DNA of 55,538 nucleotides. It comes from a virus. Shown in pieces: positions 5,949 to 22,687 of this stretch. Each line of letters starts with the position of its first letter. Within the stretch, counting starts at the first letter, position 1. The notes below the pieces were generated by a model. It saw only the letters and a program-made list of their open reading frames with translations. It was not told the origin of the DNA and ran no database searches. The DNA lies in the IMG/VR virus record IMGVR_UViG_3300009157_000023, positions 1-55,538 of that record; one strand, written 5' to 3'. The translations under genes and the position numbers were made by a program.

Positions 5949-6116
5949 AATCGGATTCGACATAAGATCATATAAATGCGATCCTTGTTTGATCCCGCAA
6001 AAATGGGCAAAACCGGACAAATAGCAGGTGAAACCGGCTGCTCAATCGACCTTTAAATAATGTAATGTACAATATTTACAGCACCTTACGCAAACGGCAA
6101 AAGATTACTGGCAGTC

Positions 6117-6150
6117 AAGAGGTCGTCGGTTCGATCCCGTCTAGCTCCAC
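6117..6150 (+). other. attP: Candidate attP core: 3' end of a tRNA gene
   Basis: The stretch reads as the last third of a tRNA: a variable-loop end, a T-arm with loop TTCGATC at 6130-6136, and an acceptor 3' strand ending GCTCCA before CT. No matching acceptor 5' strand or D-arm lies upstream, so it is only a fragment. Tyrosine integrases often recombine at tRNA 3' ends and restore the host gene; the integrase ends only 75 nt away. The host tRNA identity is not determinable here. Confidence 0.75.
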
Positions 6151-6154
6151 TAAG

Positions 6155-6224: not shown

Positions 6225-7391
6225 TCATAGCTGGGCCATTTTATTGTACACGCCTTCCAACAGCATCTGTATAATCGGATCATTATAAATCATGGTTGTT
6301 TTTATATCCCCATGCCCCAATAACTGCTGCATATCCGTAAGCTTGACGCCCTGCGCGAGATTGTAGGTTGTAAAAGTATGACGGGTAGAGTGAAAGGTCA
6401 CGCCCGGGATCTGCAAAGCCTGCGCTGCTTTGCGGAACATCTCTGTGATTGTATCTGGATCTGCGATTTCAAAAAACAGATAACCCTCTTTTGCCCGCCT
6501 TCTTACCAGGTCTATATTCCTTTGATTGTGCGAAATAGAGATTGATCCCTGGATGATCCTTTCATCCTGCAGGGCACACTTGCGCCTTTCGATAAGGGCA
6601 CCCAGCTTGTCCATTACTGGCACTCTTCTTTCTTTCTCGCCTTTTTCTATGATCCGCAAGATGTCGTACTTGGTCCCGCCTATAGTCCACCTTTCTATTT
6701 GATCCAGTTTTATCGCCGGGATGGATTGCCGGCGCGCCCCGGTCCATAGCGCGAAATTAAACACGTCCAGGTGCCAGGGTTGCTTCACGGCAAAGTATTC
6801 CCGGAATCTCTCTATTTCCTCCATAGTGAGCCGGTTCGGGCGATTGCCGTTTTTGGTCGATAATTTGTCCACCTCGAAAAACGGGTTATCCTGGATATAG
6901 CCCTTTTCTTTGGCGAACGAAAAACAGATCGAGAGATGTTTCAGGTAGGCGTTGATAGAACCGTTTTGGTAAGCAGCTTTTTTCCGGGTATCGGTCTTTA
7001 GAAGTTCGTCAATGAATTTTTCTTTTATGAACTCTTTGGTGACCTGATCGGCCAGGATATCCCGGCCTACTGTGTTGATGAAAAGCTGCAAAGCCTGTAT
7101 GTCGGTAAGGTAGGTATTTCTGGCAATATCTTTCCGGGCAAGCTGTTTTTCCCGCTCTATGATGTATTCTTTGGCCAAGAGGTAGATGGATTTGCTCGCG
7201 GATCTGGCCGGCCGAAAGTCTTTTCGGTCGAAGGTCCCCAAAGCAATGCGGTTATTGATGTCAGCCTGGATTTGCCGGGCAACTTCTTTGCTGCAGTGGC
7301 GAGTGAATGAGCTGGTTGATCCGTCTGCGTAGACAACGGTAAAGAAGGGATGTTTGCGGAAGCGGAGTTTGCAGTATCTGGGGGAGGGCAT
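6225..7391 (-). CDS. int: Tyrosine recombinase (phage integrase)
   Basis: The 388-aa protein catalyses site-specific integration and excision. It has an N-terminal arm-binding region, a SAM-like core-binding domain (about 70-180) and a C-terminal catalytic domain. The catalytic residues are visible: Arg in WTGARR (about residue 220), HSTRH at 334-338, the second His in GHGD at 360, and Tyr369 in MIYND as nucleophile. The gene ends next to a tRNA-fragment attP. It starts directly after a small membrane protein gene, in an operon with the repressor side of the lysogeny region. Confidence 0.95.
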   Translation of the reverse strand: MPSPRYCKLRFRKHPFFTVVYADGSTSSFTRHCSKEVARQIQADINNRIALGTFDRKDFRPARSASKSIYLLAKEYIIEREKQLARKDIARNTYLTDIQALQLFINTVGRDILADQVTKEFIKEKFIDELLKTDTRKKAAYQNGSINAYLKHLSICFSFAKEKGYIQDNPFFEVDKLSTKNGNRPNRLTMEEIERFREYFAVKQPWHLDVFNFALWTGARRQSIPAIKLDQIERWTIGGTKYDILRIIEKGEKERRVPVMDKLGALIERRKCALQDERIIQGSISISHNQRNIDLVRRRAKEGYLFFEIADPDTITEMFRKAAQALQIPGVTFHSTRHTFTTYNLAQGVKLTDMQQLLGHGDIKTTMIYNDPIIQMLLEGVYNKMAQL

Positions 7392-12838: not shown

Positions 12839-12879
12839 CCCGCCCGGCTCTCCCCTGTCTCCGAAACAGGCCGGGCGGG
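12839..12879. other. Long GC-rich hairpin between genes
   Basis: CCCGCCCGGC (12839-12848) pairs perfectly with GCCGGGCGGG (12870-12879); inside it CTGT and ACAG form a second small stem. There is no T-run after it, so it may be a pausing, RNA-processing or weak termination element. Confidence 0.6.
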
Positions 12880-12899: not shown

Positions 12900-13085
12900 A
12901 TGAAAGCGAAAGTAAAAAGTAAACAAGAATTGCGCAATTCCTATGTTCCCGGCGTATTGCCGCAGATGTTCGTATATTGCGGCAAGGAAATAGACGTTGT
13001 TGAGACGGGTGGCAGCCTATTCAAACAGGTTGACAAGAATAGGGAAATAGAATGGGTTTGGCATAAGGACTGGCTAATATTTTAG
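12900..13085 (+). CDS. Small basic protein, 61 aa
   Basis: It follows AAAGGG after the GC-rich hairpin. The product has a basic N-terminus and a beta-rich body with a Cys and several Trp (EIEWVWHKDWLIF), like small SH3/KOW-type folds. No family is recognised. It directly precedes the tRNA-like RNA. Confidence 0.6.
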   Translation: MKAKVKSKQELRNSYVPGVLPQMFVYCGKEIDVVETGGSLFKQVDKNREIEWVWHKDWLIF

Positions 13086-13103: not shown

Positions 13104-13173
13104 GCCGCCATCGTATAACTGGAAATACACGCCAGAAATGGCGGGATGCAGGGTTCGAATCCCTCTGGTGGCT
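13104..13173 (+). ncRNA. tRNA-like RNA lacking the anticodon (70 nt)
   Basis: All tRNA parts are present in order. Acceptor GCCGCCA (13104-13110) pairs with TGGTGGC (13166-13172) with one G-T. The D-arm is GTAT/ATAC with loop AACTGGAA (13113-13128). The anticodon stem CGCCA/TGGCG (13130-13143) is perfect 5 bp but closed by a 4-nt GAAA loop. A 5-nt variable loop GGATG follows, then T-stem CAGGG/CCCTC with loop TTCGAAT (13149-13165, outer C-C mismatch) and discriminator T. The length is 73 minus 3, as if the anticodon triplet were removed, leaving a GNRA tetraloop. CCA is not encoded. It cannot decode. A decayed tRNA gene is the plain alternative. Confidence 0.75.
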
Positions 13174-13239
13174 CTAAAATGTACCAAAACCAAGGAGGTG
13201 CGCTGGCATAAACAACCGTTGTCCCCATAACTATGCTAC

Positions 13240-13282
13240 GGGCCGGATGAAATTCCACCCCTAATAATCCGGCCCAGTTTTT
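13240..13282 (+). terminator. Terminator between the tRNA-like RNA and the exonuclease gene
   Basis: GGGCCGGAT (13240-13248) pairs perfectly with ATCCGGCCC (13267-13275) across an 18-nt loop, followed by AGTTTTT. It would end the transcript that contains the tRNA-like RNA. Confidence 0.75.
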
Positions 13283-13315: not shown

Positions 13316-13888
13316 TTGAAAATAGCTTTTATCGATACAGAGACAACCGGCATAAATCCCAAAGAAAACGGACTTGTGCAAATAGCCTGTATCGTAACCG
13401 AAAACGGCGAGGAGCTCGGGACATTCAACCACAGTGTCTGCACCTTCGAAAAAGATTTAATCACTCTGGAGGCGCTGCAGGTGACCGGTTTAACGGAACA
13501 AGAGATCAAATCCTTTCCGGATCCTATTTCTGCTCATAGATCATTTACCGATTTCCTCTGTCAGTTTGTCGATAAATTCGACAAAGCCGATAAAATGATT
13601 TTCTCGGGCTATAACGCGAAATTTGATCAGGATTTCCTGCGCGAGTGGTTTCACAAGTGCGGCGATAACTACTTTGGGTCTTTCTTCTGGTCCCCGCCGA
13701 TGGACGTAATGTCGTTGGCAATCTCAAAGTTGATGGACAAGCGTCCTGGTATGCTGAATTTCAAACTAGGGACCGTGGCGCAGGAGATGGGGATTGCGCT
13801 GGAAGCCGAATCACTACATGATGCCTTGTATGACATTCGCACTACCATCAAGATTTATGATTGCCTGAAAGGGAGCACAATTCAATGA
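13316..13888 (+). CDS. DnaQ-like DEDDh 3'-5' exonuclease
   Basis: The start is TTG 13316, fixed by GGGAGG four nt upstream. Exo I motif IDTETTG (Asp7, Glu9), Exo II SGYNAKFDQDFL (about 97-108) and Exo III HDALYDI near residue 172 are all present, giving the DEDDh active site. The 190-aa size is a stand-alone exonuclease like DnaQ or RNase T, probably acting in phage replication or repair. Its stop overlaps the next start (ATGA). Confidence 0.92.
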   Translation: MKIAFIDTETTGINPKENGLVQIACIVTENGEELGTFNHSVCTFEKDLITLEALQVTGLTEQEIKSFPDPISAHRSFTDFLCQFVDKFDKADKMIFSGYNAKFDQDFLREWFHKCGDNYFGSFFWSPPMDVMSLAISKLMDKRPGMLNFKLGTVAQEMGIALEAESLHDALYDIRTTIKIYDCLKGSTIQ

Positions 13889-16714: not shown

Positions 16715-16803
16715 AAAATTTTCAAGTTGATTACTATGCGTTGAGTTGCACGCTGTTGTTTTTGTTTATTCTGATTCTTTCCTTCTTAAGAAGAAGGAAA
16801 TAA
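16711..16803 (+). CDS. 30-aa single-pass membrane peptide
   Basis: A strong GGGAGGG site lies 7 nt upstream. The peptide is one hydrophobic segment (CTLLFLFILILSFL) followed by a basic tail RRRK, so it should insert with the C-terminus inside. Its stop overlaps the methyltransferase start as TAATG. Function unknown. Confidence 0.5.
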   Translation: MKNFQVDYYALSCTLLFLFILILSFLRRRK

Positions 16804-17807
16804 TGGTAACTATCCTGCAAGGCGACTCTCTCGAGGTCCTAAAAACATTGCCCGCTGAGTCTATTCAAATGTGCGTAACTAGTCCGCCTTATTATGGCTT
16901 GCGGGACTATGGAGTTGATGGGCAGATTGGACTCGAGGCGGATCCAGAAGAATACATTGCCAAACTCGTTGCTGTTTTTGCAGAGGTGAGGCGCACATTA
17001 AAACCGGATGGTGTTTTGTGGGTAAATATCGGGGATAGTTATGCTGGCAGCGGCAAAGGTGGCCAATCAGAACAAAAAAGAAGTGATAACTGGCAGCCTA
17101 AATATGGGAATAAAGGATTTCTGTATGGACTAAAGCCCAAGGACCTTATCGGTATTCCCTGGCTTTTAGCCTTTGCGCTTCGCGCAGATGGATGGTATTT
17201 GCGGAGCGATATAATTTGGAGCAAGCCAAATCCGATGCCGGAAAGTGTAACAGATAGGCCGACAAAAAGCCATGAATATATTTTTCTGTTATCCAAAAGC
17301 GCAAAATATTACTATGACGCGGAAGCGATAAAGGAAGCTGCTAAATATAGTATTGACGAAAGAATTGCAAGAGTAAATGAAAATCATAAGTCAATTCCTG
17401 ATAATAAAAAGAATGTTATTCGTCAAAGAAAACCGGCTGGATGGGATACGAGGCAAGGTGCGCATGGAGCATTTCATCGAGAAGGAAGAGCTCAGAATAT
17501 TGAGTACACCACAACCCATGTGCTCAACCGGAATAAGCGTTCTGTTTGGACTGTGGCAACTCAGCCTTTCAAACAAGCCCACTTTGCTACATTCCCGCCG
17601 GATTTGATTAAGCCTTGCATTCTTGCCGGTTCACGTGAAGGCGATACGGTGCTTGACCCATTCGCCGGGTCCGGTACAACTGGTATGGTTGCCGAGCAGT
17701 ACGGCCGTAATTCAGTTTTGATAGAACTCAACCCGGAATATATTGAGATGATAAAAATTCGAACTGCACAGATAGGACTATTTGGAAAACTAGAGAAAGT
17801 GGCGTAA
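16803..17807 (+). CDS. Site-specific DNA methyltransferase (TSPPY type)
   Basis: ATG 16803 follows AAGGAAAT and gives 334 aa. Motif IV TSPPYYGLRDYG is near residue 22 and the SAM-binding motif I DPFAGSGTTG is near residue 283, the beta order (IV before I). KPNPMPESVTDRPTKSHEY is the well-conserved central block of this phage family. SPPY suggests N4-cytosine, though N6-adenine is possible. It probably protects phage DNA from host restriction. No restriction endonuclease is adjacent. Confidence 0.93.
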   Translation: MVTILQGDSLEVLKTLPAESIQMCVTSPPYYGLRDYGVDGQIGLEADPEEYIAKLVAVFAEVRRTLKPDGVLWVNIGDSYAGSGKGGQSEQKRSDNWQPKYGNKGFLYGLKPKDLIGIPWLLAFALRADGWYLRSDIIWSKPNPMPESVTDRPTKSHEYIFLLSKSAKYYYDAEAIKEAAKYSIDERIARVNENHKSIPDNKKNVIRQRKPAGWDTRQGAHGAFHREGRAQNIEYTTTHVLNRNKRSVWTVATQPFKQAHFATFPPDLIKPCILAGSREGDTVLDPFAGSGTTGMVAEQYGRNSVLIELNPEYIEMIKIRTAQIGLFGKLEKVA

Positions 17808-21008: not shown

Positions 21009-21410
21009 ATGGACGAATTAAAGAGTTGCCCGCATTGCAAAGGAACAGATATTACATTAGTTTATTGCATGGCCCAATTTGGCAGAAACCCAGAAGCCTA
21101 TCAATTTGTTTGCGACAAATGTGGATTACAAAGCCCTCGCGGTGCCACAGAAGCAAATGCAAGGGATTTATGGAACGGGTTGCCGCGAGACAACAAGCCT
21201 AACTGGAAAGACGCGCCGGATTGGGCTAATTGGTTGGCACAGGACGAAAATTGTTTGTGGTGTTGGTTTGGGAAAAGACCGCAGCCGAACATAAATTATC
21301 AAAAGTGGCAACCGTCACTATCTATTTTTGATTATGAAAATATAACGCCAAAAATTATGTCTAATCCAGATTGGCAACAAACTCTTGAAAAGCGTCCGGA
21401 GTCTGTATGA
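21009..21410 (+). CDS. Lar-like restriction-alleviation protein
   Basis: The first 60 residues have the Lar/zinc-ribbon signature CPHCKGTDI near residue 7, FVCDKCGLQSP near 38, and TEANARDLWNGLP near 50. Lar proteins (Rac/lambda-like phages) reduce type I restriction and enhance modification. The remaining 75 residues are Trp-rich and not recognised. It overlaps the next gene by 4 nt. Confidence 0.75.
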   Translation: MDELKSCPHCKGTDITLVYCMAQFGRNPEAYQFVCDKCGLQSPRGATEANARDLWNGLPRDNKPNWKDAPDWANWLAQDENCLWCWFGKRPQPNINYQKWQPSLSIFDYENITPKIMSNPDWQQTLEKRPESV

Positions 21411-21968: not shown

Positions 21969-22224
21969 GGTTTTAGCCGGTCTCAAGACACAGCCCCTGC
22001 AAAACGAAATAGAGGATTTGACAGACGAGATCCATGCCCTGAGAGAGGAATTGCGACAGTTGCTCGGATATCTTGGAGTGCCGGTTGTCATAGGCCCGGA
22101 AATACTGGAACATCCTCCTTCCAACGGCAACAATGGCGAAGCGGAATCACCTAATATCACAAGAGCCAGAAAGTGGCTGAGTGGGGAGAGCCAGGGCAGC
22201 GCACAAAAACCAGAAAAGGATTGA
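21955..22224 (+). CDS. Small coiled-coil protein, 89 aa
   Basis: Residues 12-42 form a charged coiled coil (LQNEIEDLTDEIHALREELR), followed by a Pro/Gly-rich, probably disordered tail. It overlaps the previous gene by 14 nt. Function unknown. Confidence 0.6.
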   Translation: MSYDKVLAGLKTQPLQNEIEDLTDEIHALREELRQLLGYLGVPVVIGPEILEHPPSNGNNGEAESPNITRARKWLSGESQGSAQKPEKD

Positions 22225-22225
22225 C

Positions 22226-22687
22226 ATGGAAACAAATTACCAGCTTATCAAAACAAAGCTTTTGAAAAAGAAAGCCAAAGCCGTAACCCAGGAAGATTTG
22301 CTTTATCCGGAAAGACTGAAACAGATCGTCCTTGACCTGTTCGGCCTTATGATAAACCACAAAGCCGCCGGCATAGCGGCAAATCAGTGTGGCATAAACC
22401 GGCAAATCTGTCTTATCCGCGACGGGCGCGGGGTGAAATTTCTCATTTTTATAAATCCGGTTATTGTCAAATCTACTCCGCAAACCGCAAGTAACATCGA
22501 AGTCTGTATGTCTTTCCCGGGTGACCGGCGCAGGATGGTTAGGGCCAAAGCCGTTACCGTACGCACCATGGATTTCACCGGCAAGTTTCGCAATATCAAG
22601 TTTCGCGGCAACCAGGCTGCAAGTGTGCAGCACGAAATCGATCACTTGAACGGCTTGACTATTCTGCGCGGGGAGAAAGTGAAATGA
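22226..22687 (+). CDS. def: Peptide deformylase
   Basis: ATG 22226 directly follows the upstream stop. All three deformylase motifs are present: AAGIAANQCGIN at 47-58 (Gln54), EVCMSFPG at 92-99 with the metal ligand Cys94, and QHEIDHLNG at 135-143 with ligands His136 and His140 and catalytic Glu137. Motif II has Val where EGCLS enzymes have Gly. The 153-aa length is that of compact phage deformylases. The enzyme removes the formyl group from nascent proteins; phage copies may favour translation of phage proteins. Confidence 0.9.
   Translation: METNYQLIKTKLLKKKAKAVTQEDLLYPERLKQIVLDLFGLMINHKAAGIAANQCGINRQICLIRDGRGVKFLIFINPVIVKSTPQTASNIEVCMSFPGDRRRMVRAKAVTVRTMDFTGKFRNIKFRGNQAASVQHEIDHLNGLTILRGEKVK

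Follow-up and report, generated by a model that had tools for sequence, protein, structure and literature searches.

A GAAA-capped tRNA body without an anticodon loop in a temperate phage, and its possible role as a decoy for tRNA-binding enzymes

The DNA analysed here (the window) comes from a temperate phage and is the whole of its 55.5-kb IMG/VR record. Among the early genes lies a 70-nt tRNA body that has a GAAA tetraloop where an anticodon loop should be; it is not a product of chance, and comparable capped bodies occur elsewhere, in viral contigs and just upstream of slipin genes in bacteria. We interpret the element tentatively as a non-decoding tRNA mimic, and favour for it, short of confidence, the role of an uncuttable decoy for a tRNA-binding enzyme such as an anticodon nuclease.

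Results

Structure and fold

A base-by-base parse agreed with the coordinates given in an earlier note on this DNA, and the features are collected in Table 1. The element reads GCCGCCA-TC-GTAT-AACTGGAA-ATAC-A-CGCCA-GAAA-TGGCG-GGATG-CAGGG-TTCGAAT-CCCTC-TGGTGGC-T, with T8 and C9 at positions 8 and 9, A26 preceding the anticodon stem, and a variable loop of GGATG. The discriminator U73 (13173) is followed by CTA, and CCA is not encoded. The bases U8, A14, G18, G19 and A21 are retained, as is the T loop in full, and the anticodon loop alone is abnormal. The earlier note had described a 4-nt GAAA loop on a perfect 5-bp stem, which the sequence bears out, and had called every arm intact; this holds for the acceptor, D and anticodon stems, which are paired, and does not hold for the T stem, with its C.C mismatch at 49-65, or for the non-standard 15-48 pair. 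It had also described the anticodon triplet as missing: there is indeed no anticodon, but the wording is inexact, as U33 is absent too. Simple excision of positions 34-36 would have left N-U33-N-N, and since U33 is gone as well, the GAAA loop did not arise in that way.

Table 1. Coordinates of the features discussed
Feature	Position	Strand	Remarks
tRNA body without anticodon loop	13104-13173	+	70 nt including U73; from parse, RF00005, random-sequence control and fold
Acceptor 5' strand GCCGCCA	13104-13110	+	pairs with TGGTGGC 13166-13172; 7 bp, one G-U
D stem GTAT/ATAC	13113-13116/13125-13128	+	loop AACTGGAA; A14, G18, G19, A21 in place
Anticodon arm, capped hairpin CGCCA-GAAA-TGGCG with GNRA tetraloop	13130-13143	+	from sequence; stem 13130-13134 CGCCA / 13139-13143 TGGCG, 5 bp; GAAA loop 13135-13138
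T arm CAGGG-TTCGAAT-CCCTC	13149-13165	+	T loop canonical; stem with one C.C mismatch (49-65)
5' leader ATTTTAG	13079-13085	+	complements 3' trailer CTAAAAT 13174-13180, pre-tRNA-like; shares bases with the stop codon that ends ORF 12900-13085
Possible terminator hairpin GGGCCGGAT/ATCCGGCCC	13240-13282	+	9 bp, 13240-13248/13267-13275; 18-nt loop; TTTTT 13278-13282
61-aa ORF, no family match	12900-13085	+	co-directional, upstream of the element
DnaQ-like 3'-5' exonuclease (RNase_T; phrog_192)	13316-13888	+	co-directional, downstream of the element
Tyrosine integrase	6225-7391	-	
Bacterial slipin-operon loci	L213:1634-1783; L301:2734-2883; L260:2928-3071; L298:3794-3939; L319:1105-1319		also L322, L324, L334 and others

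The minimum-energy fold of the 70-mer is the cloverleaf, at -25.7 kcal/mol. The rival pairing of CCGCCAT with ATGGCGG that had been raised earlier is disfavoured, reaching -17.7 kcal/mol, 8 kcal/mol worse than the cloverleaf. With longer flanks, neighbouring sequence competed for the acceptor helix and the GAAA hairpin persisted, four of its five pairs having a probability of at least 0.84 across all flanks tried.

Two alternatives draw on these details. The element could be a decaying lone tRNA gene, a former decoding tRNA that lost bases of its anticodon loop and is drifting, and the acceptor pairs G1-C72 and C2-G71, U73 and the TC-GTAT D arm do resemble tRNA-Gly; we regard decay as the chief competing account, possible but doubtful. 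The acceptor, D and anticodon stems are nonetheless fully paired and the tertiary-contact bases retained, and the remaining loop forms a stable GNRA cap where a triplet excision would have given N-U-N-N. U73 and G1-C72/C2-G71 are also glycine-type identity elements, and with acceptor and elbow intact the RNA could be a charging competitor or amino-acid donor, aminoacylated, probably by a synthetase needing little of the anticodon, for extra-ribosomal use or for sequestration of the synthetase. Recognition by glycyl-tRNA synthetase, however, also relies on C35 and C36, both of which are absent, as is the G3-U70 of alanine, and CCA is not encoded, so that charging seems improbable.

Identity as a tRNA body

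The element scored 32.4 bits against Rfam RF00005, above the gathering score of 29, and 56 in a scan for tRNA shape, in which 991 Mb of random sequence (first-order Markov, matched in composition) went no higher than 43. As nothing in the random sequence reached 56 and the RF00005 cut-off was exceeded, a chance fold is refuted, and we give it practically no weight; the same two results support the earlier reading as a non-decoding tRNA body. In terms of RF00005 membership, a cloverleaf whose D and T loops are canonical is present, and the 7-nt loop with U33 and a readable anticodon is absent. Because the codon-reading loop is exchanged for a four-base cap, the element can read no codon and has no part in translation; without an anticodon it is not a decoding tRNA of the T5 type, which restores translation.

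ARAGORN, which the short loop defeats, did not detect the element, and cmscan of the full 55-kb window missed it because its filters fail on the short loop; since both overlooked it, a class of such RNAs would be easily overlooked. No other tRNA body is present in the window. No tmRNA was found in the window by ARAGORN or Rfam, and no Rfam match to a Y RNA around the element; a Ro60-type stem with an adjacent rsr gene was likewise not seen, the neighbours being phage recombination and exonuclease genes. The window holds no RtcB and no Band_7 (slipin) gene, and hence no slipin-operon context.

Gene neighbourhood

The phage encodes an AAA_24/Sak4-like ATPase, a Gp157-like protein, exonuclease-like genes, terminase, portal and tail proteins. 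The element starts 18 nt past the stop codon of the 61-aa ORF and sits between co-directional genes. A terminator had been said to follow it; a hairpin with a T-run does exist, but it lies 67 nt downstream with an 18-nt loop, is only a possible terminator, and is absent from the list of a terminator scan for loops of 3-8 nt. A sigma-70 scan found no promoter-like site, which counts against reading it as a transcribed mimic.

RNase P and 3' processing recognise the acceptor and T arms. The element might be an RNA-processing or 3'-end element: RNase P and the nucleases that trim tRNA 3' ends would cleave its tRNA shape and so part the mRNAs on either side or shield them, as in mascRNA/MALAT1, and decoding would not matter. 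Its place between co-directional genes just past a stop codon, the possible leader/trailer pairing, and the hairpin and T-run downstream are all consistent with this; an anticodon stem has nevertheless been kept and capped though the processing enzymes need none of it, and we consider a processing role unlikely.

tRNA-derived attachment sites are common, and the phage has a tyrosine integrase, which would be the grounds for taking the element as an integrase attachment-site remnant. This origin was rejected and is very improbable. The 3' part of a tRNA-Ala(GGC) lies beside the integrase at about 6107-6151 and is likely the phage attachment site; it is some 6-7 kb upstream of the element, which has both acceptor strands. 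With the site placed there, integration does not explain the element.

Elsewhere in the window, a strong 10-bp GC hairpin (CCCGCCCGGC/GCCGGGCGGG, 12839-12879) lies between two early genes with no T-run after it, and the phage carries a weak match to the Lar restriction-alleviation family (21009-21410), a peptide deformylase (22181-22687) and an N6/N4 DNA methylase (16746-17807).

Relatives of the locus

Searches by way of the exonuclease, the AAA_24 ATPase or the terminase, which covered viral contigs, phages and bacterial genomes, gave no relative that carries the locus. The nearest phage (L126/G002) has a terminase of 65% identity, with structural genes in common and little of the early region, and no tRNA body was found in it. 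BLAST of the element against phages and plasmids gave T-arm or chance matches only. A search anchored on the D arm gave four viral bodies that share the D stem of the element, yet their loops are ordinary 7-nt ones and their acceptors unrelated. A single copy with no conserved homologue is in keeping with decay.

Short-loop tRNA bodies in viral contigs

A loop-neutral spacing pattern, its spacing one base off that of the window element, found at least 17 distinct well-formed bodies with 4-nt loops in viral contigs. GNRA loops made up 2 of the 17 4-nt-loop bodies listed (p about 0.1), an enrichment that is not significant and that counts against the decoy reading. Viral short loops ranged from 2 to 5 nt, a variation that also suits decay. 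The GAAA-specific pattern gave L185, with all stems perfect, 58.4 bits, a T-run after it and no other tRNA body in its locus; it also gave L165, L166, L176, L178, L188 and others, and comparable bodies are L017, L073 and, from a phage-like MAG contig, L254. Standard tRNA finders label such bodies 'tRNA-???' or miss them.

The pair L175/L177 bears on drift. Their GAAA loop is unchanged while one anticodon-stem pair goes from C-G to A-U and two acceptor pairs are altered on both sides; two-sided pair changes around a constant GAAA indicate selection on structure, not drift, and so speak against decay as an account of the phage element. The opposite case is L048 (6272-6343), the only one of 31 viral short-loop bodies for which BLAST against phages gave a relative, a normal tRNA-Lys. 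It is 84% identical to the tRNA-Lys of Streptomyces phage Heather, has the loop CTAA, and seems to be a phage tRNA-Lys whose TTT anticodon was lost recently, a clear precedent for decay.

Several other arrangements were noted in these contigs. L175 (2955-3349) and L177 (2560-3070), and also L036, L038, L057 and L023, carry several RNAs whose acceptor/T-arm ends (AGTCAGG ... CAGGTTCGAATCCTGTCCTGACTA) are identical or nearly so while their interiors differ; the tRNA-ended non-coding RNAs of such contigs include a GAAA-capped body with a hairpin in its D loop. L096 and L003 are near-identical viral bodies with a 3-nt loop (CCTGA-TAT-TCAGG) and an encoded CCA, and the bodies at L085:195 and L033:4332 (reverse strand) are homologous, sharing a CCTC-GACG-GAGG arm, with one D-stem pair changed from C-G to T-A.

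Capped tRNA bodies upstream of slipin in bacteria

The GAAA pattern was run on GTDB genomes, followed by a search with the slipin protein alone; 4 of the 39 slipin loci so collected entered through the GAAA pattern, and the remaining 35 are independent of it. Two Methylotenera loci (L213, L301) have GAAA bodies between rtcB and slipin, an Arenimonas locus (L260) has one adjoining both genes, and in L298 the GAAA body is upstream of slipin. Within 600 nt upstream of slipin, 28 of the 39 loci had tRNA bodies, 38 in all, and the 600 nt downstream of slipin at the 39 loci had none; by length surveyed this is 38 bodies in 23.4 kb upstream vs 0 in 23.0 kb downstream. Loops of the 38 upstream bodies were of 4 nt (6 bodies), 5 (5), 6 (6), 7 (18), 8 (1) and 9 (2). 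Four of the 4-nt loops owe nothing to the pattern, and three of those are GNRA (GCAA, GTAA, GAAA; binomial p about 1e-4).

Between the two Methylotenera loci the GAAA body is unchanged while its neighbours have diverged, and the sibling with a 9-nt loop shows compensatory changes; together with L175/L177 these are short-loop bodies under selection, and to that extent they argue against decay. In L322 a GCAA-capped body has the acceptor strand GCCGCCA and U73 of the phage element, and is the only other case of this acceptor among 524 tRNA bodies scanned; as one match, the identity is suggestive. The GAAA-body pattern run across the order of Arenimonas found none besides the query, so that GAAA-capped bodies appear sporadic.

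Slipin (Band_7)-RtcB operons with one to three tRNA-like genes, having loops of 4-9 nt, just upstream of slipin thus occur in Gammaproteobacteria as defined in GTDB, and the slipin gap of Methylotenera holds an additional conserved structured RNA. The part of the literature open to searching gave no description of tRNA mimics in these operons or of their association with slipin.

Discussion

The recognition surfaces of a tRNA are all kept in the phage element and there is no loop to read or cut, and competition for proteins that bind the tRNA body is therefore the best explanation we can offer. We infer transcription, processing, effector binding and decoy action in the following form. The temperate phage would make an RNA derived from a tRNA, transcribed together with the early replication and recombination genes and trimmed as a tRNA is. 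The parts that proteins recognise (acceptor stem, elbow of D and T loops, anticodon stem) would be kept, while the GAAA tetraloop would allow no codon reading and offer no 34-38 loop to cut. Such an RNA could bind a tRNA-attacking enzyme without being consumed and so act as a competitive decoy; the first candidate would be an anticodon nuclease of the host, or a similar effector that targets tRNAs.

That the enzyme would be one that cuts tRNA is suggested by the company of similar bodies with RtcB, a repairer of cut tRNAs. The tRNA-like YrlA, encoded in an rtcBA operon, is uncut and a possible competitive inhibitor of an anticodon nuclease (Hughes et al. 2020, PMC7790460). By analogy with YrlA and with the GNRA-capped bodies upstream of slipin, a decoy or competitor role is plausible. 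Phages change anticodon arms to counter tRNA-cutting defences, and because they already carry loop-altered tRNAs against such defences, an anticodon-nuclease decoy would be a natural thing for a phage to have (PMC10264068, PMC11455837). Against the decoy, the T-stem C.C mismatch, the non-standard 15-48 pair and the modest covariance score would suit decay equally; the viral, phage and bacterial sequences searched gave no homologue at this locus, the phage has no RtcB or slipin, and L048 looks like anticodon loss.

It is conceivable, though we would put it forward with doubt, that phages and bacteria share an unrecognised set of non-decoding, GNRA-capped tRNA mimics, the bacterial ones in slipin-RtcB operons and the phage ones as single early genes, which would serve as sinks or sensors that anticodon-attacking enzymes cannot cut. 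If so, there is an overlooked class of small RNA, made of tRNA bodies unable to decode and simple to look for and to assay; these RNAs would give a direct handle on the fight between phage and host over tRNA cleavage, and a hint at what RtcB/slipin RNA-repair operons respond to.

Among known systems, YrlA (rsr-yrlBA-rtcBA, PMC7790460) is likewise a tRNA mimic, uncut by anticodon nuclease and sitting with RtcB, but it is a larger RNA bound by the Ro60-type Rsr, whereas the phage element is a free-standing 70-nt GNRA-capped cloverleaf without rsr or rtcB. The T5 tRNA-Lys active against PARIS (PMC11455837) and the phage tRNAs of van den Berg et al. 2023 (PMC10264068) are phage-borne bodies whose anticodon arm is altered, again in a setting of defences that target tRNA; these tRNAs, however, keep a 7-nt loop and replace a lost tRNA in translation, and the phage element cannot decode. 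The tRNA-like domain of tmRNA is a tRNA-like end without an anticodon, and differs from the phage element, which has a full D arm and neither an mRNA part nor an SmpB context. mascRNA/MALAT1 and the viral tRNAs of gammaherpesviruses are tRNA-like and non-decoding, the anticodon loop of mascRNA being reduced, but these are animal systems of different origin. The slipin-operon RNAs come from cells, usually form a tandem with another body that has a loop of 5-9 nt, and are linked to RtcB and slipin, neither of which the phage has; they are alike in being 70-75-nt tRNA bodies with 4-nt, mostly GNRA loops (L213, L301, L260, L298, L319, L322, L324, L334), and the altered, often GNRA-capped anticodon loop that marks this class is found in the phage element as GAAA.
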